Below the pieces are notes generated by a model. The model worked only from the letters and a program-made list of their open reading frames with translations. It had not been told where the DNA came from and searched no databases. Below are positions 15,893 through 23,292 of a DNA stretch of 64,000 bases, in pieces. The stretch is from Streptomyces sp. NBC_00490 (GTDB lineage Bacteria; Actinomycetota; Actinomycetes; Streptomycetales; Streptomycetaceae). Position 1 is the first letter of the stretch; every line of letters starts with the position of its first letter. The position numbers were made by a program, and so were the translations under genes. Where the stretch lies: contig NZ_CP107869.1 of assembly GCF_036013645.1 (NCBI RefSeq), forward strand, positions 1,488,001 to 1,552,000, read 5' to 3'.

Positions 15893-16239
15893 ACACCAGC
15901 CCGACCGCCGTCGTCGAAGCGGCGTTCCGCCACTACCGTTCACAGGACCGCGAGGCCGCCTTCGCGCTCTACGCCGAGGACTTCACCTTCACCAGTCCGC
16001 GGGACGACCACATCGACAAGGCGGCCTTCTTCGAGCGGTGCTTCCCGACCGCGGACCGGTTCGCGGAGCAGCGACTGCTGCACGTCGTCCCCGCAGACGG
16101 GGAGCTCGTATTCGTCCACTACGAGTACGAGCTCACGACCGGCGGCCGGTACCGCAATGTCGAGGCGATCACCGTCCGGGACGGACTCGTCCGTGAGGTG
16201 CAGGTCTTCTTCGGCGGCGAGGTCGGCGGCAGCCGCTAG
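15889..16239 (+). CDS. NTF2/SnoaL-like small protein
   Basis: A 116-aa cone-shaped alpha+beta protein. VEAAFRHYRSQDREAAFALYAEDFTFTS at the start, FVHYEYELTTGGRYRNVEAITVRDGLVREVQVFF at the end and the internal DHIDKAAFFERCF are typical of SnoaL/limonene-epoxide-hydrolase-like folds. Members act as small hydrolases, isomerases or binding partners. Its ATG overlaps the preceding flavoprotein's stop, so the two are coupled. Its 3' end overlaps by 4 bp that of the convergent LLM monooxygenase. Confidence 0.82.
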   Translation: MNTSPTAVVEAAFRHYRSQDREAAFALYAEDFTFTSPRDDHIDKAAFFERCFPTADRFAEQRLLHVVPADGELVFVHYEYELTTGGRYRNVEAITVRDGLVREVQVFFGGEVGGSR

Positions 16240-17381
16240 CTCGCGAACGGCACCTGTGCCGAGGGAGCGGCCGGCTTCTCGAACGGGTGCTGCCACAGCC
16301 CCTGGGCGGCGAGCCGCGGCAGGACGCCCTCGCCGAACCAGTAGGCCTCCTCCAGGTGCGGATAGCCGGAGAGGACGAACTCGTCGATGCCGAGGGCGTG
16401 GTACTCCTTGATCCGCTCGGCGACCTCGTCGTGGCTGCCGACCAGGGCGGTGCCCGCGCCGCCGCGGACCAGGCCGATGCCGGCCCAGAGGTTGGGGTGG
16501 ATCTCCAGCCCGTCGCGGTTGCCTCCGCTGTGCAGGGCGAGCATCCGCTGCTGCCCCTCGGACTCGCTGCGGGCGAGTCCGGCCTGGACCGACTTCACGG
16601 TGTCCGGGTCGAAGCCCGCAAGGAGCCGGTTCGCCTCGGCCCACGCCTGCTCGGAGGTGTCGCGGGTGATGACGTGCAGCCGGATGCCGAAGCGCAGGGT
16701 GCGGCCGTGCTTCGCGGCGAGCCCCCGGATCCAGGCGATCTTCTCGGCAACCGCTGCCGGGGGCTCGCCCCAGGTCAGGTACACGTCGACGTGCCGCGCG
16801 GCGATCTCGCCGGCGATCGGCGAGGAGCCGCCGAAGTACACCTCGGGGACGGGGTCGGGCACCCGGGCGAGCTTGGCGTCCTCGACCTGGAGGTGTTCGC
16901 CCTTCAGGTCGACCGTCTTGCCCTCCCACAACCCGCGTACGACTTCGAGGAATTCGCCGGTACGGCGGTAGCGGTCGTCCTTGTCGAGGAAGTCGCCGTA
17001 GGCGCGCTGCTCATGGCTCTCGCCGCCGGTGACGACGTTGAGCAGGAGCCGTCCGCCGCTCTGCCGCTGGAAGGTGGAGGCCATCTGCGCGGCGAGGGTC
17101 GGTGAGACGAATCCGGGGCGGAAGGCGACCAGGAACTTCAACCGCTCGGTGTGCTGGCTGACCATGGCGGTGGTCAGCCACGCGTCCTCGCACCAGGCGC
17201 CGGTCGGCGTGAGCGCGCCGACGAAACCGAGGTCCTCGGCGGCGCGGGCGATCTGGCTCAGATAGGCCACCGTCGGCGGCCGGTCGCGCCCGGAGACGGT
17301 GGCCGGGGTGCCGTGGCCGCCGCCGACGACATGGCGGCTGTCCCCGTTGGTGGGCAGGAACCAGTGGAAGGTGAGGGACAC
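16236..17381 (-). CDS. LLM-class FMNH2-dependent alkanesulfonate monooxygenase (SsuD-like)
   Basis: A 381-aa bacterial-luciferase-like enzyme. Landmarks are LTFHWFLPTNGDSRHV, ARAAEDLGFVGALTPTGAWCED, LKFLVAFRPGFVSPTLAAQMASTFQR, GRLLLNVVTGGESHEQRAYGDFL, DRYRRTGEFLEVVRGLW, PEVYFGGSSPIAGEIAARHVDVYLTWGE and FVLSGYPHLEEAYWFGEGVLP. These match SsuD, which uses FMNH2 and O2 to split the C-S bond of alkanesulfonates to aldehyde plus sulfite. It is the last gene of the minus-strand sulfur operon, 37 bp after the SfnB-like gene. The reduced flavin would come from the FMN reductase encoded three genes earlier. Confidence 0.9.
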   Translation of the reverse strand: MSLTFHWFLPTNGDSRHVVGGGHGTPATVSGRDRPPTVAYLSQIARAAEDLGFVGALTPTGAWCEDAWLTTAMVSQHTERLKFLVAFRPGFVSPTLAAQMASTFQRQSGGRLLLNVVTGGESHEQRAYGDFLDKDDRYRRTGEFLEVVRGLWEGKTVDLKGEHLQVEDAKLARVPDPVPEVYFGGSSPIAGEIAARHVDVYLTWGEPPAAVAEKIAWIRGLAAKHGRTLRFGIRLHVITRDTSEQAWAEANRLLAGFDPDTVKSVQAGLARSESEGQQRMLALHSGGNRDGLEIHPNLWAGIGLVRGGAGTALVGSHDEVAERIKEYHALGIDEFVLSGYPHLEEAYWFGEGVLPRLAAQGLWQHPFEKPAAPSAQVPFAS

Positions 17382-17418
17382 GTGGGGGTCTCCGATCAGG
17401 GCTTCGGGATCTTCGGGG

Positions 17419-18603
17419 TCAGAGCAGACCGTGGCGGGGCGGCCTGGTGCCGTTGAGCACGTACCGGCCGATGTGCTGGATCTTCCAGCGGGTCGGGTCG
17501 TGCAGGGTGTGTGTGCGGGCGTCGCGCCAATGACGGTGCAGGTTCAGGGAGTTGAGGGCCGAGCGAGTGCCGGAGACCTCGAAGAGCGCGCTCGCCACCT
17601 CGACAGCCGCCTCGGCGGCCCGCACCTTGGCGGCGGCCACGGCGATCGACGCCTCGGCCGCCGAGTCGTCGGTCAGGTCGGCCTGCGCCGCTTCTACGGC
17701 ACGCGCGGCTTCCCGCAGCAGCGCTTCAGCCGCCCTTACCTGGAGGGCGAGTTCACCGAAGCGCTGGATCAGCAGCGGGTCCTCGGCGGCCGTCTCGAGG
17801 CCGCTCTCGAACCACGGCCTGCTCTTCGTCCGTACGAACTCCGCCGCCTCCGCCAGCGCTCCCCCGGCGATCCCGGTGTCGATGGCGGCGTGCAGCAACT
17901 GGGCGACGGCGCCGTGTAGTTGGGGGCCCTCGAAGGTGAGGTGATGGGGCAGGACCCGGTCGGCCGGGACCTCGACGCCTTCGAGGCGGACCGTGCCGCT
18001 GGCGGTGGTGCGCTGGCCGAGGCCGTCCCAGTCGTCGATCACGGTGACGCCGGGTGCGTCCCGGGGCACGTACGCGACGTGGAGCTTGTCGTCCTCGGCG
18101 CGGGCGAGCACGGGGATCCAGTCCGCGAAGAGGGCGCCGGTGGAGTAGTGCTTGACGCCGTCGAGGACGTACGAGCCGTCGGGTCGCGGCGTGAGGCGGG
18201 TGCGGATGTCCTGGACGTGCCGGGTGCCGGCCTCCGACTGGGCGTTGCCGAGGCGGCGGCCGGAGAGGAGTTCGGCGAAGAAGAACTTCCGTTGCTCCTC
18301 GGTGCCCTGACGGCGGATCACGTTGACGTAGGCGAAGTGGCTCTGCGGGATCTGCGCGAGGCTGGCGTCGGCCGCGGCCAGCAGCCGGAAGATCTCGGCG
18401 AGGGTCAGCGGGCCGACGTCCGCTCCCCCGTGCTCCGCGGGAACGGTGACGGCCAGCAGGCCGGACGCGGAGAGCCGGTCCAACTCGGCGCGCGGCAGCC
18501 TGCGTTCGGCGTCCCGTGCGGAGGCTCCCGCGCGGAACTCCTCGGCCAGGGCAGCCGCGACGGCGAGGGCCTCCGCGTCGTCGGCGATCACATGGGCGGT
18601 CAT
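17419..18603 (-). CDS. SfnB-family sulfur acquisition oxidoreductase
   Basis: A 394-aa acyl-CoA-dehydrogenase-fold flavoenzyme. Key blocks are LSASGLLAVTVPAEHGGADVG (about 48-68), IPQSHFAYVNVIRRQGTEEQRKFFF, NAQSEAGTRH, LDGVKHYSTGALFADWIPVLA, and the C-terminal signature HRHWRDARTHTLHDPTRWKIQHIGRYVLNG. The last is characteristic of the SfnB/DszC group that oxidises organosulfur compounds. It is separated by 5 bp from the FMN reductase gene upstream and sits inside the sulfone/sulfonate cluster, supporting a role in organic sulfur scavenging. Confidence 0.88.
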   Translation of the reverse strand: MTAHVIADDAEALAVAAALAEEFRAGASARDAERRLPRAELDRLSASGLLAVTVPAEHGGADVGPLTLAEIFRLLAAADASLAQIPQSHFAYVNVIRRQGTEEQRKFFFAELLSGRRLGNAQSEAGTRHVQDIRTRLTPRPDGSYVLDGVKHYSTGALFADWIPVLARAEDDKLHVAYVPRDAPGVTVIDDWDGLGQRTTASGTVRLEGVEVPADRVLPHHLTFEGPQLHGAVAQLLHAAIDTGIAGGALAEAAEFVRTKSRPWFESGLETAAEDPLLIQRFGELALQVRAAEALLREAARAVEAAQADLTDDSAAEASIAVAAAKVRAAEAAVEVASALFEVSGTRSALNSLNLHRHWRDARTHTLHDPTRWKIQHIGRYVLNGTRPPRHGLL

Positions 18604-18608
18604 CCGGG

Positions 18609-19163
18609 TCAGCTCGCCGCGGCCAGGACCGGGGTGCGGCCCAGGGCCGCCGAGAACTGGTCGACGACCTGCGTCAGGGCCTCGGTGCTGGTCGCCACGA
18701 CGCTGAGGGTGCCGTCCTCGTGCACGGTGATGTCCTTGTCGAGGGTGAACCAGCCCTGGACGATGTGGGCGGCGCCCATGGAGTTGAGCACCGGGCGCAG
18801 CGCGTAATCGATGGCGAGGACGTGGGCGGTGGTGCCGCCGGTGGCGAGCGGAAGCACGGTCTTGCCGGTGAGCGCATACTGCGGGAGCAGGTCCAGCAGG
18901 GCCTTGAGGACTCCGGAGTAGGACGCCTTGTAGACCGGGGTGGCGACGACGACCCCGTCGGCGCGGGCGAAGAGCTCGGTGGCCTCGACGATCGCGGGGT
19001 GCTGGAAGTCGGCGCCGAGGAGGGCCTCGGCGGGGATGGTGCGGACGTCGAGCGGGATCACCTGGTGGCCCTGTGCGGCCAGCCGCTGGTCGAGGTGGCG
19101 CAACAGGCGGTTGGTGCGGGAGGAGGCGGAGGGGCTGCCGGAGACGGACAGGACGGTGGCCAT
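18609..19163 (-). CDS. NAD(P)H-dependent FMN reductase (SsuE/MsuE type)
   Basis: A 184-aa flavodoxin-like reductase that supplies FMNH2 to the neighbouring monooxygenases. The start VLSVSGSPSASSRTNRLL is the phosphate-binding loop of the NADPH-dependent FMN reductase family. VVVATPVYKASYSGVLKALLDLLPQYALTGKTVLPLATGG is the SsuE/MsuE hallmark, including the helix inserted after PVYKASYSG. The frame opens at 19196, but AGAGGA before the ATG at 19163 and the family N-terminus (MATVLSVSG) decide the start. It lies between two acyl-CoA-dehydrogenase-like genes in the same operon. Confidence 0.93.
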   Translation of the reverse strand: MATVLSVSGSPSASSRTNRLLRHLDQRLAAQGHQVIPLDVRTIPAEALLGADFQHPAIVEATELFARADGVVVATPVYKASYSGVLKALLDLLPQYALTGKTVLPLATGGTTAHVLAIDYALRPVLNSMGAAHIVQGWFTLDKDITVHEDGTLSVVATSTEALTQVVDQFSAALGRTPVLAAAS

Positions 19164-19221
19164 GCGGTCCTCTTTCGGGGAGCGGGGCGCCCGCACACGG
19201 CGGGCGCCCCCGGGGAAGCGG

Positions 19222-20439
19222 TCAGGAGTACCAGGTGGGTTCGGGCAGTTCGCCCTCGAGGACCCAGCGGCCGACCTCGCGCCGCTTGTAGGCGACCGGA
19301 TCGTGCAGGGTGTGGGTGCGGACGTTGCGCCAGAACCGGTCGAGACCCTCGGCGCTGGCCGTGGAGCGGGCTCCGGTGACCTCGAAGATCCGGTTCGAGA
19401 TCTCCAGGGCGACGTCGGTGGCGCGCGCCTTCACGGCGGCGACCCGCACCTCGAAGTCGCCGCGGGTCTGCTCGGTGACCGCGTCGGGGTCGTCGTGCAG
19501 CTTCTGCCCCTCGGCGGCGACGGTGTCGGCGAGCGCCTCGACCGCCCAGAGCTTCGCGGTGAGGTCGCCGTAGATGTCGATGACGTACGGCTCGTCGACC
19601 GCGCGCTCGTGGCCGCCGTGCAGCCAGGAGCGGGACTTCTCACGGGTGTAGGCGGCGGCCGTCTCCAGGGCGCCGCCCGCGATGCCCAGGTAGAAGTTGA
19701 CGAAGATCAGCTGGATGGTGGGGACGTTCAGGGTGTTGTAGACGCGCGGCTGGAACACCTTGTCGACGTATCCGGCCGCCGACGACCACGGTGTGCGTAC
19801 ACCATCGAGGGTGACGCCGCCGCTCTCGGTGAGCCGCTGGCCGATGTTGTCCCAGTCGTCGTGGAAGGTCAGGCCCGGCGAGTCGGAGGGCACGATGGCG
19901 AAGACGTGGTCGTCGGTGCCTTCGAGTACGCCTTCCAGGACGGTGACGTCGGAGACCTTGCTGCCGGTGGAGAAGGTCTTGCGGCCGGTGAAGACGAGGT
20001 CGTCGCCGTCCTCGGTGACGGTCACGTCCTTGTCGCGCGGGTTGACGGCGCCGCCGAAGAACCAGCGGTTGCGTGCTGCCTCGGCCTCCACGTGCTGCCA
20101 CTGTTCGCGGGTGCCGACCAGACGGGCGGCCCAGTTCCACAGGTAGTGGTAGCCGAGGAGCTGGCCGATGGAGCCGTCGGCCCTGGCGACCTCGCGGACG
20201 ACGCGGTACGCGGTCGGCCAGTCCTGGCCCGCGCCGCCGTGCTCCGTGGGGCCGAGCAGGGTGACAAGGCCGGAGTCCTTGAGGAGCTGGACCTCGGCGT
20301 GGGGGGTGGCGCCGGCACGGTCGCGGGCGGCGGCGTCGGTGGCGAGGACGGCGGCGACGTCGGCGGCGCGGGCGATCCAGTCCTGGGCGCTCTCGGGCGC
20401 GGGACGGTTGTGCCAGTCGGTGTTGGTGACGGTGCTCAT
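19222..20439 (-). CDS. DszC/SfnB-like flavin monooxygenase (acyl-CoA dehydrogenase fold)
   Basis: A 405-aa enzyme related to dibenzothiophene monooxygenase DszC and SfnB. It shows LLKDSGLVTLLGPTEHGGAGQDW (about 53-75), DGSIGQLLGYHYLWNWAARL, RWFFGGAVNPRD, FTGRKTFSTGSKVSD, the FHDDWDNIGQRLTESGGVTLDGV strand, and RFWRNVRTHTLHDPVAYKRREVGRW at the end. It is expected to use FMNH2 and O2 to oxygenate organosulfur or related substrates. It lies 14 bp after the sfnG-like gene and 59 bp before the FMN reductase. Exact substrate is uncertain. Confidence 0.88.
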   Translation of the reverse strand: MSTVTNTDWHNRPAPESAQDWIARAADVAAVLATDAAARDRAGATPHAEVQLLKDSGLVTLLGPTEHGGAGQDWPTAYRVVREVARADGSIGQLLGYHYLWNWAARLVGTREQWQHVEAEAARNRWFFGGAVNPRDKDVTVTEDGDDLVFTGRKTFSTGSKVSDVTVLEGVLEGTDDHVFAIVPSDSPGLTFHDDWDNIGQRLTESGGVTLDGVRTPWSSAAGYVDKVFQPRVYNTLNVPTIQLIFVNFYLGIAGGALETAAAYTREKSRSWLHGGHERAVDEPYVIDIYGDLTAKLWAVEALADTVAAEGQKLHDDPDAVTEQTRGDFEVRVAAVKARATDVALEISNRIFEVTGARSTASAEGLDRFWRNVRTHTLHDPVAYKRREVGRWVLEGELPEPTWYS

Positions 20440-20452
20440 GTCGGTGACCTCC

Positions 20453-21562
20453 TCAGACCTGGGCGGGGACGGACTCGGGGAGCTGGGCCTCCAGTTCGCG
20501 CACCAGCGGCAGGACGCGTTTGCCGAAGTACTCGACCTCCTCGTGGTAGTGGAGGAAGCCGAGGAGGAGCAGGTCGACGCCGAGCTTCTTGTAGGCGACG
20601 ATCCGTTCGGCGATCTGCTCGGGGGTGCCGATGAGCCCGGTGCGGAAGCCGTCGTTGTACTGGACGAGGTCCTCGAAAGAGGAGTCCTGCCACATGCCCT
20701 TCTTGTCGGCGGTGGACTGGCCGGCCTGCTTCACGGCGTTGCCGAAGCCCTCGACGGCCTCGGTGTCGGCCTTGGCGACGATCTCCCGGAGGGTGTCGCG
20801 GGCCTCGGCCTCGGTGTCACGGGCGATGAGGAAGCCGTTGAGGCCGAACTTCGGTGCGGTGCGGCCGGCTTCGGCGGCGGACTTGCGGACGTCCTCGATC
20901 TGCTCGACGACCCCGTCGAAGTCCTTGCCGTTGGAGAAGTACCAGTCGGAGACCCGGCCTGCCATCCGCCGTGCGGCGCTGGAGTTGCCGCCCTGGAAGA
21001 TCTCCGGGTGCGGGCGCTCGGGGGTGTTGAGCGGCTTGGGCTTGAGGGAGAAGTCGCGCAGCCGGTAGAAGTCACCGGCGAGTTCGGTGTGGTCCTCGGT
21101 CCAGATCTTGCGCAGGGCGGTGATGAACTCCTCGGAGCGGCGGTAGCGCTCGTCGTGCTCCAGCCAGGGCTCGCCGAGGGCGGTGAACTCGCCCTTGAAC
21201 CAGCCGGACACGACGTTCACGGCGAAGCGGCCGTTGGACAGGTGGTCGGCGGTGGCGCCGAGCTTGGCCAGCACGCCGGGGTGCCACAGCCCGGGGTGGA
21301 CGGCGGCGATGACCTTCAGACGCTGGGTGGCGAGGAGGAGGGCGAGGCTGAAGCTGGTCGACTCGTGCTGGTACTCGGCGCCGTAGCTGGCCATGTAGCG
21401 GACCTGGCTGAGCGCGTAGTCGAAGCCGTTGTTCTCGGCGAGGACGGCGAGTTCGCGGTTGTAGTCGTAGCCCCAGTCGGTGCGCTGCTCGATCTTGCTG
21501 GTGACGAGTCCCCCGCTGACGTTGGGGACCCAGTAGGCGAATTTCACGGGCTCTGCGGGCAT
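20453..21562 (-). CDS. sfnG: Dimethylsulfone monooxygenase SfnG-like LLM protein
   Basis: A 369-aa FMNH2-dependent luciferase-fold monooxygenase. KFAYWVPNVSGGLVTSKIEQ at the N-terminus is the SfnG signature. It is followed by NGFDYALSQVRYMASYGAEYQHES, GRFAVNVVSGWFKGEF, LEHDERYRRSEEFI, PEIFQGGNSSAARRMAG and KLGVDLLLLGFLHYHEEVEYFG. SfnG converts dimethyl sulfone to methanesulfinate. The frame is open to a GTG at 21595, but GGAG six bases before the ATG at 21562 marks the start. It is the first enzyme gene after the Cys leader peptide; the hairpin and anti-SD at 21599-21642 lie in between. Confidence 0.9.
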   Translation of the reverse strand: MPAEPVKFAYWVPNVSGGLVTSKIEQRTDWGYDYNRELAVLAENNGFDYALSQVRYMASYGAEYQHESTSFSLALLLATQRLKVIAAVHPGLWHPGVLAKLGATADHLSNGRFAVNVVSGWFKGEFTALGEPWLEHDERYRRSEEFITALRKIWTEDHTELAGDFYRLRDFSLKPKPLNTPERPHPEIFQGGNSSAARRMAGRVSDWYFSNGKDFDGVVEQIEDVRKSAAEAGRTAPKFGLNGFLIARDTEAEARDTLREIVAKADTEAVEGFGNAVKQAGQSTADKKGMWQDSSFEDLVQYNDGFRTGLIGTPEQIAERIVAYKKLGVDLLLLGFLHYHEEVEYFGKRVLPLVRELEAQLPESVPAQV

Positions 21563-21598
21563 GCGGAACTCCAGTTGCGGAATGTTTTCGAGCACGCC

Positions 21599-21642
21599 GA
21601 ATTCAAGGAGGTCGTCAAAGGGAACGCGGACGCGTTGAATTC
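21599..21642 (-). promoter_or_regulatory. Candidate attenuator hairpin between Cys leader peptide and sfnG
   Basis: GAATTCAA (21599-21606) and TTGAATTC (21635-21642) form an 8-bp inverted repeat. It encloses a second one, AACGCG-GA-CGCGTT (21623-21636). In the minus-strand RNA the segment also reads CCUCCUU, the exact complement of a Shine-Dalgarno sequence, and sfnG's own GGAG lies about 40 nt further on. Its position 42 nt after the leader stop fits attenuation or SD masking. The switching mechanism is inferred. Confidence 0.45.
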
Positions 21643-21684
21643 AGGCGTGAAGAGCGAAAAGCGCGGCGGATCTCGAGGGAGTGA

Positions 21685-21768
21685 TCAGGCCGCGGGGCAA
21701 CAGGAGGCGCTGGAGACGCGCGCGAGGTCGACATGGCGTCGCCGCGTGAGGTCCAGTCGCATCATCAT
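21685..21768 (-). CDS. Cys-Cys leader peptide of the sulfur operon (27 aa)
   Basis: The minus-strand frame reads MMMRLDLTRRRHVDLARVSS, then ASCCPAA and stop. It matches the short actinobacterial 'putative leader peptide' family (RLxLTRRRHVDLxRVSS...C) found upstream of sulfur and cysteine genes. The consecutive Cys codons near the end should stall ribosomes when cysteinyl-tRNA is scarce, coupling sulfur starvation to expression of the downstream operon. Three ATG codons in tandem (21768, 21765, 21762) form the start region, with only GAGA upstream. The next gene, sfnG, starts 122 nt downstream. No other cysteines occur in the peptide. Confidence 0.88.
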   Translation of the reverse strand: MMMRLDLTRRRHVDLARVSSASCCPAA

Positions 21769-21906
21769 GTTCTCGATCGTGACAGCCGCCGGTCCGGGCC
21801 GTCAAGGTAAACCCGACCGGTCTCGTATCGCGGACCATTGAATTTCACGAAGGTGTGACAGGGAAACCCTTGAACACGCCGGGAAATGCGCCGCATTCTT
21901 CCTGCC

Positions 21907-22815
21907 ATGCGGACCGAACAGCTCGAATACATCGCCGCGGTGACCCGGCTCGGTTCCCTGCGCCGGGCCGCGGAGGAACTGCGCCTTTCCCAGCCCGCGT
22001 TGAGCGAGACCGTGCGGAATCTGGAACGTGAGCTGGGCGTGGACCTCCTGGAGCGCAAACGCTCGGGCGCGACGATGAGCGCGGAGGGCCGGGAGCTGCT
22101 GCCGCACATCATCAACGTCCTGGACGCGGTGGACCGGCTGCGGTCGGCGGCGGGCGAGCAGCACCGCATCAGCCGGATGGTGCGGGTGGGGACGGTGAAC
22201 GCGGCGACCGTGCCGCTGCTGATCCCGGCGGTGCGGGAGTTCCGCGCCGGCCATCCGGTGACCCAGGTCGAGGTGGTCGGCGCCCAGCAGAGCGACATCC
22301 ACCGGGCGCTGTCCGAGGGCGGTTTCGATCTCGGCCTGGTGAACCATCTGGAGGGCGACGACGTGCCGGCCGAGCTGGAGAGCACGGAGCTGCTGCGCGG
22401 CCGCCCCGTGGTGTGCCTGCGTCCGGACAGTCCGCTGGCCTCGCGTACCGCGCTGTCGGTGACCGACCTCCTGGACACGCCGCTGATCGCGATGCGCTCG
22501 GGCTATGTCATGCACCGCTATGTGCACCGGCTGCTGGACGGCAGGGCGCCCTCGTTCTCGTACTCCACCGACGGCGCCGAGATGGGCAAGCTGATGGTCG
22601 CGGAGGGGCTCGGTGTGACGGTGCTGCCGGACTTCAGCGTCGTGGACGATCCTCTGGTCCGTGGCGGCGCGCTCACCCACCGCCCGCTCACCGACGACTC
22701 GACCCGGGTCCTGCTGATGCTCCAGCGCCGCCGCGCGGACCCGGTGCCGCGCGCGGTCCAGGACCTGCACGACGCGTTCGTGGCGCGGGCCCGGGAGCTG
22801 GTCTCAGGGGACTGA
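21907..22815 (+). CDS. LysR family transcriptional regulator
   Basis: A 302-aa regulator. The N-terminal winged helix-turn-helix reads MRTEQLEYIAAVTRLGSLRR followed by AAEELRLSQPALSETVRNLE and LGVDLLERKRSG. The effector domain (about 90-295) starts VRVGTVNAATVPLLIPAVREF. It is divergent from the leader peptide/sfnG operon, 138 bp apart, so it is probably the operon's activator, as CysB/SfnR-like regulators are elsewhere. The family length (about 300 aa) is normal. A second possible ATG lies at 21886, but the usual LysR N-terminus begins at 21907; neither has a strong Shine-Dalgarno sequence. Confidence 0.92.
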   Translation: MRTEQLEYIAAVTRLGSLRRAAEELRLSQPALSETVRNLERELGVDLLERKRSGATMSAEGRELLPHIINVLDAVDRLRSAAGEQHRISRMVRVGTVNAATVPLLIPAVREFRAGHPVTQVEVVGAQQSDIHRALSEGGFDLGLVNHLEGDDVPAELESTELLRGRPVVCLRPDSPLASRTALSVTDLLDTPLIAMRSGYVMHRYVHRLLDGRAPSFSYSTDGAEMGKLMVAEGLGVTVLPDFSVVDDPLVRGGALTHRPLTDDSTRVLLMLQRRRADPVPRAVQDLHDAFVARARELVSGD

Positions 22816-22894
22816 ACGTCCGGGAGTGGGAAGGCGATCACGAATATCGTGCGGCGGACTTCTCGTGGGCGAGCGGCTGAGCGGCGTAGCTGAT

Positions 22895-23292
22895 GGGTCG
22901 TGAGGACCGCCTTGGTGACGCCGGTGCTGCGGATCAGGTCCAGGAGCTCGAAGCGGGCGCGGATGCCGAGGTGGTTGGTGAGTTCGTCCAGGACCAGGAG
23001 CCGGGGTCGCTGGGTGAGCGCGCGGGCCGGCAGGACGCGTTGGCGTTCGCCGCCGGAGAGGGTGGCGTGGTCACGGTCCGCGAGACAGTTCCCCTACGTC
23101 GTCGCCGCCCACTCCGACCACGCCGTCGGCCGACCGCAGGGAGCGGTGGACGGTGCACAGCAGGGTGGACCTGCCGCTGCCGTTGGGGCCGACGAGCCCG
23201 ACGGTGTCCCGCTTGTCCGCCTCCGGATTCACGGCGCGGAGGACCGGTGTGCGGTCCAGGGTGATGTGGAGCTGGTCCACGGTCAGTTGCAT
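22895..23292 (-). pseudogene. Decayed iron-siderophore ABC transporter ATPase (FecE-like)
   Basis: From the ATG at 23292 the frame gives LTVDQLHITLDRTPVLRAVN and VGLVGPNGSGRSTLL (Walker A, with Arg in place of the Lys) and reaches VGGDDVGEL. It then loses the reading frame and about 60 residues of normal sequence. In another frame from about 23075 it resumes with ADRDHATLSGGERQRVL, ARALTQRPRLLVLDELTNHL (Walker B, Pro changed to Leu) and ELLDLIRSTGVTKAVL. The C-terminal third with the switch His is gone. It is therefore a frameshifted, internally deleted and truncated relic, unlikely to be functional. Confidence 0.75.

Follow-up and report, generated by a model that had tools for sequence, protein, structure and literature searches.

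Upstream of sfnG, on the minus strand of the window (the whole stretch of 64,000 nucleotides analysed here, from Streptomyces sp. NBC_00490), is a 27-codon open reading frame; profile score and conservation identify it as a true and conserved representative of an already described leader-peptide family. This frame probably makes the translation of sfnG, and probably also that of the genes that follow, depend on cysteine, as a leaderless leader peptide acting through translational attenuation. Across the family, one cysteine codon at a fixed distance from a conserved aspartate is nearly always UGU. The leader set is large, is little described in the literature searched, and probably brings sulfur assimilation in antibiotic producers under the control of cysteine at the level of translation. 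Why UGU is almost invariant is a sharp question, and this rule, which holds across the family, most deserves specialist attention.

The leader and the sfnG locus

Read from 21768 to 21685 on the minus strand, the leader comprises 27 codons and a TGA stop; the plus strand of the same interval reads otherwise and has no comparable coding. The initial annotation had described a leader-family frame of this length with the exact coordinates, leaving its strand unstated, and had placed it between a LysR-facing promoter and sfnG; the flanking frames are a divergent LysR-type gene and sfnG. The features of the locus are listed below in the order of transcription from the putative leader promoter region, preceded by the divergent gene.

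21886–22815, plus strand: divergent LysR-type regulator (open reading frame, profile search)
21800–21805, minus strand: −35-like hexamer TTGACG (sequence)
21776–21781, minus strand: −10-like hexamer CACGAT (sequence, by eye)
21685–21768, minus strand: leader frame, translation MMMRLDLTRRRHVDLARVSSASCCPAA and stop (profile match, translation, kept in orthologs)
21697–21706, minus strand: CUCCUGUUGC, the Ser-Cys-Cys codons, complementary to the sfnG Shine–Dalgarno (SD) region (consensus fold and register count)
21700–21702, minus strand: conserved cysteine codon at D+9, UGU (UGU in 59/59 sfnG leaders, the window included)
21596–21684, minus strand: spacer 3′ of the leader stop, C-rich and G-poor, with 35 C, 25 T, 17 G and 12 A (base count)
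21569–21578, minus strand: GCAACUGGAG, the sfnG SD region, forming 9 of 10 pairs with 21697–21706 (register count)
20453–21562, minus strand: sfnG, dimethylsulfone monooxygenase (TIGR04021, 637 bits, cut-off 383)
19222–20439, minus strand: DszC/SfnB-like flavoprotein (profile match below the cut-off of the best model)
18609–19196, minus strand: SsuE (profile match)
17419–18603, minus strand: SfnB (profile match)
16236–17381, minus strand: SsuD-like monooxygenase (profile match below the cut-off of the best model)

The longest frame of sfnG (20453–21595, minus strand) begins with GTG at 21595. The ATG at 21562, which lies behind a GGAG and 122 nt downstream of the leader, is favoured as the start because SD and ATG are kept in orthologs. 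The sulfur genes at 16236–20439 share the minus strand with sfnG, and together they would form one operon. Searching the window against Rfam at gathering scores gave no matches. Behind the LysR-type gene, at 22840–23200 on the minus strand, is a stretch that by eye resembles a decayed fragment of an ABC-transporter ATPase (VLDELTNHL).

Against the NCBIfam model NF042934 (‘putative leader peptide’, class cis_reg_atten), the leader scores 29.9 bits (E = 3e-7), above the curated cut-off of 27, so that the frame is annotatable, real and of a known kind; the earlier remark that it is too short for routine annotation does not hold, as a curated NCBI model recognises it. It shares the RRxHVDLxRVSSxxC body of this family and looks like a regular member, with no difference found in a comparison covering the name and the description line of the model, neither of which states a mechanism. 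The Cys-rich families Ms5788A (NF042933) and Ms4527A (NF042936) have a similar body with cysteines near the C-terminus; the leader scores 28.4 and 25.1 bits against them, below the cut-off of 45 that applies to each, and is a member of neither.

Within the best 80 of at least 590 confirmed loci of sfnG relatives, the 420 nt before the match were scanned for the leader motif, which was present at 57/57 Streptomyces and Actinacidiphila loci and at 2/23 loci of other groups. One locus (L080) was left out of this set by the motif, although a leader is present; its cysteine is also encoded by UGU. The distance from the leader stop to the sfnG ATG spans 109 to 264 nt in the 57 sequences, and the peptide changes little. 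Among 52 non-redundant sfnG leaders, pS is 0.296 and pN is 0.081 over 16 codons. At the level of sequence, the observation of a conserved leader frame is confirmed as more than chance.

Paralogous leaders precede many sulfur genes. The same genome contains 11 further matches to NF042934 (E ≤ 1.1e-4), nine of them over the cut-off. With the window leader included, 12 matches reach E ≤ 1e-3, of which nine pass the cut-off by core score and one more together with its frame. Three weaker matches (E 0.07–0.27) were retained as leader-like on inspection, and five (L016–L020, E 0.38–1.2) were excluded. The frames behind these leaders encode CysM-like, cysteine dioxygenase, sulfite/nitrite reductase, rhodanese, O-acetylhomoserine/O-acetylserine (OAH/OAS) sulfhydrylase and taurine-dioxygenase-like proteins, an NtaA/DmoA monooxygenase and a flavin reductase, and also a ROK protein, sugar-type and peptide-type binding proteins and an ABC permease; these are best matches for sequences cut at 350 residues, several of them below curated cut-offs, and two frames gave no family call at the thresholds used. 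Among 70 downstream frames picked from 123 in other genomes were 14 NIR_SIR, 13 rhodanese, 11 DUF4395 and 6 PAPS reductase matches. Of 60 genomes sampled from the class, 50 have a match to NF042934 at E ≤ 0.001.

A near-invariant UGU codon

The family was sampled at 152 loci, 15 from the same genome, 57 from genome searches and 80 fetched (68 of the 80 over the cut-off); of the search matches that came with no locus, those beyond these 80 were left aside. Two were dropped, L153 as a mis-registered, truncated locus and L230 as having no leader. Once redundancy was removed, the analysed set comprised 144 leaders; they come from 74 genomes and 27 families and are not independent of one another. 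At D+9, nine residues past the aspartate, cysteine is encoded by UGU in 139 of 141 cases. Taking one leader per genome gives 72/74; each of the 27 families has UGU at least once, and 23 have it without exception. The sfnG set, for which per-codon pN/pS values extend through D+8, has no synonymous change at D+9.

Elsewhere the same codon is infrequent, with UGU at 25 of 140 other cysteine positions of the same leaders (p = 8e-51) and for 28 of 276 cysteines, about 10%, in the 138 frames behind them. The codon of the aspartate itself varies (GAC 103, GAT 41), and other positions ending in C or T have T in 104 cases and C in 363. Following UGU is a pyrimidine in 134/139 leaders (C 111, U 23). At the position after the cysteine the peptide mostly has R, P, C, L, Q or S (136/141), and a pyrimidine kept despite this variation looks like a constraint at the RNA level too. 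The D+9 cysteine is isolated in 122/144 leaders and, counting from D−8 on, is the only cysteine in 64.

The exceptions are L219 and L229, with UGC, and L006, L207 and L237, with no cysteine at D+9. L006 and L207, paralogs from two Streptomyces genomes, read RHIDL.RVCSAI, with CGC and TGA at D+9 and a cysteine (TGC) at D+5; they are a diverged kind of the same leader. Two other leaders (L130 and L132) carry six adjacent cysteines at the site (AGCCCCCCSC) and are polycysteine-like; they too have UGU at D+9. No report of the UGU constraint, or of these leaders in Streptomyces, was found in the literature searched, most subscription papers being outside its reach.

Proposed coupling of the leader to sfnG translation

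On the minus strand of the window, TTGACG is followed by 18 nt, CACGAT, 7 nt and the leader ATG. Among 58 leaders upstream of sfnG, TTGAC lies 37 nt from the leader ATG in 43 and 36 nt in 2, and is absent in 13, so that the spacing expected of a leaderless start fits 45 of the 58. Family-wide, TANNNT is placed 7 nt before the start codon in 29/142 leaders, 6 nt in 6 and 8 nt in 2; any other single distance is found in at most 6 of the 142. A scan of 21500–21900 for the sigma-70 consensus flagged no promoter, and the window hexamer CACGAT does not fit TANNNT. The spacing in the orthologs suggests a leaderless transcript that starts at or beside the leader ATG. Leaderless transcripts make up a reported 17% in Streptomyces lividans, where other leader peptides are described as leaderless as well (PMC8079986). 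Nine Streptomyces sfnG leaders seem, by eye, to have an SD before the leader; in these relatives the mode of initiation would have shifted while the peptide was retained.

When 20 leaders with near spacers are folded to a consensus, pairing between leader and sfnG SD is predicted, with the Ser-Cys-Cys codons occupying the SD. The consensus energy is −33.2, as against −7.8 ± 2.8 for column shuffles, which keep neither dinucleotides nor relatedness and make the z of −9 a generous one. In the fixed register CUCCUGUUGC:GCAACAGGAG, all 10 pairs are present in 19 of 57 sequences, and the window has 9, with one U·U mismatch. Sliding the register by 1–4 nt lowers the mean number of pairs from 8.30 to at most 5.60 (57 sequences). 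Part of this complementarity is the common CUCC/GGAG, the covariation between leader and SD is not beyond chance (405 of 5,000 shuffles match the observed pairing of the 57 sequences), and the helix weakens in distant Streptomyces. Two loci without an SD by the GGAG..ATG pattern (L039 and L049) were left out of the fold, register and blocking tests.

A 30-nt block at UGU, imitating a stalled ribosome in silico, takes the mean probability of an unpaired SD from 0.103 to 0.230 (57 sequences, p = 1.4e-6), whereas with the block elsewhere in the spacer it is 0.108 (p = 2.9e-6). With the block at the leader stop codon it reaches 0.201 (p = 0.00056 against the free RNA), nearly the same opening, so the fold alone cannot single out a stall at UGU. 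The RNA of the window is among the weaker cases: with UGU blocked, opening over five bases is nil (0.21 to 0.21), GGAG alone opens slightly (0.03 to 0.21), and the fold of the whole leader is mildly stable (z −1.72, with 12 of 200 shuffles as good). The structure hiding the SD is a prediction for the sfnG orthologs, weak in the window and lacking covariation. Between leader and sfnG, at 21599–21642 of the minus strand, GAATTC, often as CTGAATTC, occurs twice; it is seen by eye in many orthologs among L021–L050 and could be bound by a protein or could base-pair, either with itself or with a GAGTTC that overlaps the SD.

The initial annotation had proposed cysteine-dependent attenuation. Its leader, its family and a control of sulfur genes by cysteine are supported by homology, placement and the genes downstream; attenuation of transcription fares less well. 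A consensus scan of the minus strand over 21500–21900 gave no intrinsic terminator, which makes classical transcription attenuation less likely than translational attenuation by sequestering of the SD, perhaps with Rho. Most plausibly, the supply of cysteine acts through translational attenuation, which has been reported for the polycysteine leaders of mycobacteria. RNA synthesis would begin at the leader AUG, and a ribosome would translate the leader. With ample Cys-tRNA it would clear UGU-UGC, terminate at UGA and depart, whereupon the Ser-Cys-Cys stretch would pair with the sfnG SD and sfnG would stay untranslated; the C-rich untranslated RNA might then undergo Rho termination. With scarce Cys-tRNA the ribosome would wait with UGU in the A site, covering the anti-SD stretch, and sfnG would be translated. 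The conserved peptide body (R...D..R) probably assists the pause at the single UGU.

Rho could also carry the regulation itself, in the manner of the tna operon. In Escherichia coli, the ribosome stalled on tnaC sits beside the Rho entry region, and the operon is Rho-dependent and induced by tryptophan. In the corresponding scheme, a ribosome stalled at UGU would cover a C-rich Rho entry site behind the leader stop, and without the stall Rho would terminate transcription before sfnG. A C-rich, G-poor stretch does lie directly behind the stop: in the 15 nt up to the end of the stop codon C makes up 0.33 and G 0.31 of the bases, and in the next 15 nt 0.47 and 0.28 (143 leaders). Over the 80 nt after the stop the C–G skew is 0.232 for the same 143, whereas 96 intergenic control windows give 0.014 (p = 2.8e-24); these controls were drawn from sfnG loci, mostly of Streptomyces, and so represent the genomes of the family set incompletely. 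The stop itself is the first to fifth codon past the conserved cysteine in 166/191 leaders. For mycobacterial cys leaders, which are described as having no conserved terminator hairpins, Seliverstov et al. proposed Rho while calling the prediction weak (PMC1262725). C-richness may, however, merely keep the spacer unstructured, and a Rho site and a structure-free spacer are inseparable in these data; the scheme also leaves the exact complementarity to the SD before sfnG unexplained. The direction of control differs as well, as tryptophan induces tna and here low cysteine should induce. We consider regulation by Rho itself possible but doubtful.

A role of the nascent chain beyond assisting translational attenuation is likewise conceivable, though we think it improbable: R−4, D0 and R+3 in the exit tunnel would cause or tune the pause at UGU, and the leader would read more than the supply of Cys-tRNA. 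Conservation at these tunnel positions is at the level of the peptide, the three residues being invariant in 144/144 leaders with varied codons (pN/pS 0.05, 0.00 and 0.03), albeit in a set recruited with a peptide profile and anchored row by row on the aspartate, a procedure biased towards conserved residues, even if the lack of an aspartate excluded no row. By the theory of Elf and Ehrenberg (PMC1183508), plain codon starvation should be insensitive in the many leaders with an isolated or sole cysteine. The tunnel residues conserved in tnaC include an aspartate 8 residues before the P-site residue, a spacing that may resemble that between aspartate and cysteine in the leader. An arrest induced by a ligand would need the sense opposite to that of tna. 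A chance frame, or a regulatory RNA with an accidental coding look, is suggested by the short length and by the many open frames of GC-rich DNA, and is contradicted by the family score, the 57/57 orthologous loci and the synonymous variation around fixed residues to the point of being extremely improbable.

Decoding of UGU and known cysteine leaders

Pattern searches found two tRNA-Cys genes in the genome, both with the anticodon GCA (L245:1470–1543 and L246:1469–1543); one of them is part of a Gly/Cys/Val cluster, and the other stands by itself in a 3-kb locus. The single match to an ACA-anticodon pattern in the genome is not a tRNA by ARAGORN, which makes G:U wobble the most likely mode of reading UGU. 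Isoacceptor-selective charging would then not explain a rare synonymous codon, and the decoding of UGU itself should matter. In the theory of Elf and Ehrenberg, as presented in PMC1183508, sensitivity is gained through many control codons and through selective charging of isoacceptors. With one cysteine codon and one anticodon neither route would apply, a point in favour of assistance by the peptide or by decoding. A pyrimidine following a codon is a weak context.

We suggest only tentatively, as a reading that may well fail, that the cysteine leaders of actinomycetes are mostly single-codon sensors and not counters of polycysteine: a UGU (almost never UGC) followed by a pyrimidine, at fixed spacing to the tunnel residues R/D/R, would be sensitised by wobble, by the weak 3′ context and maybe by tRNA thiomethylation. 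MiaA and MiaB are both present in the genome, and tRNA-Cys, which reads UNN codons, is likely to have its A37 as their target. For a Ser-UCA codon in the Uof leader of E. coli, a preference for methylthiolated tRNA is reported that couples fur to iron (PMC7466049). By analogy, we hypothesise that UGU also senses sulfur (or iron) through thiomethylation of tRNA-Cys, as a sulfur counterpart of Uof/fur. In the boldest reading, UGU would be a slow-read control codon, perhaps one sensitive to tRNA thiomethylation.

Three other demands on UGU were tried and rejected. A family-wide anti-SD role was not apparent in the comparison of own with swapped leader/SD duplexes (p = 0.12, 138 loci), in the frequency of ACA near starts (0.254 of 138 leader genes and 0.259 of 305 control starts), in the best helix falling on the SD (19/127, with 15.7 expected) or in the opening of the SD by a block at UGU (0.184 without the block and 0.228 with it, control blocks giving 0.199; p = 0.064 in 88 loci); the sfnG subset, reduced to 10 loci as the start finder needs longer sequence, had no excess of own pairs either (p = 0.62). 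Hungry-codon frameshifting at UGU found no clear support, with a median open run of 59 codons in +1 against 50 in shuffles and of 43 against 50 in −1 (143 leaders, mononucleotide shuffles). Leaders fold slightly better than their synonymous variants (mean z −0.35, p = 0.0003, 139 leaders). A local hairpin was considered in the same 139, in which UGC in place of UGU lowers the probability that the codon is unpaired from 0.505 to 0.396, an effect that is real and was judged too small to account for 139/141.

The closest relatives in mode of action may be the mycobacterial leaders. According to papers citing Canestrari et al. 2020, leaderless frames with contiguous cysteines in Mycobacterium smegmatis regulate translation of the next gene through the cysteine-dependent speed of the ribosome (PMC9031893, PMC13236596); mycobacterial polycysteine leaderless frames are also treated in PMC9094748. 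The window leader resembles them in its likely leaderless start, in its cysteine codons near the stop and in the sulfur genes downstream. In the system of Canestrari and colleagues, a structure hiding the SD is reportedly opened by the paused ribosome, and such a structure is predicted here for the sfnG orthologs. Unlike those frames, the window leader has two adjacent cysteines, and most of the relatives examined have an isolated one; one position is fixed as UGU, and the body other than the cysteines is conserved. A further likeness is to uORFC-8-2, the cysS leader of Rhodobacterales, described as a short frame with conserved cysteine codons before a cysteine-related gene; that leader belongs to another phylum and differs in having an intrinsic terminator and tandem cysteines encoded mostly by UGC (PMC8632094).
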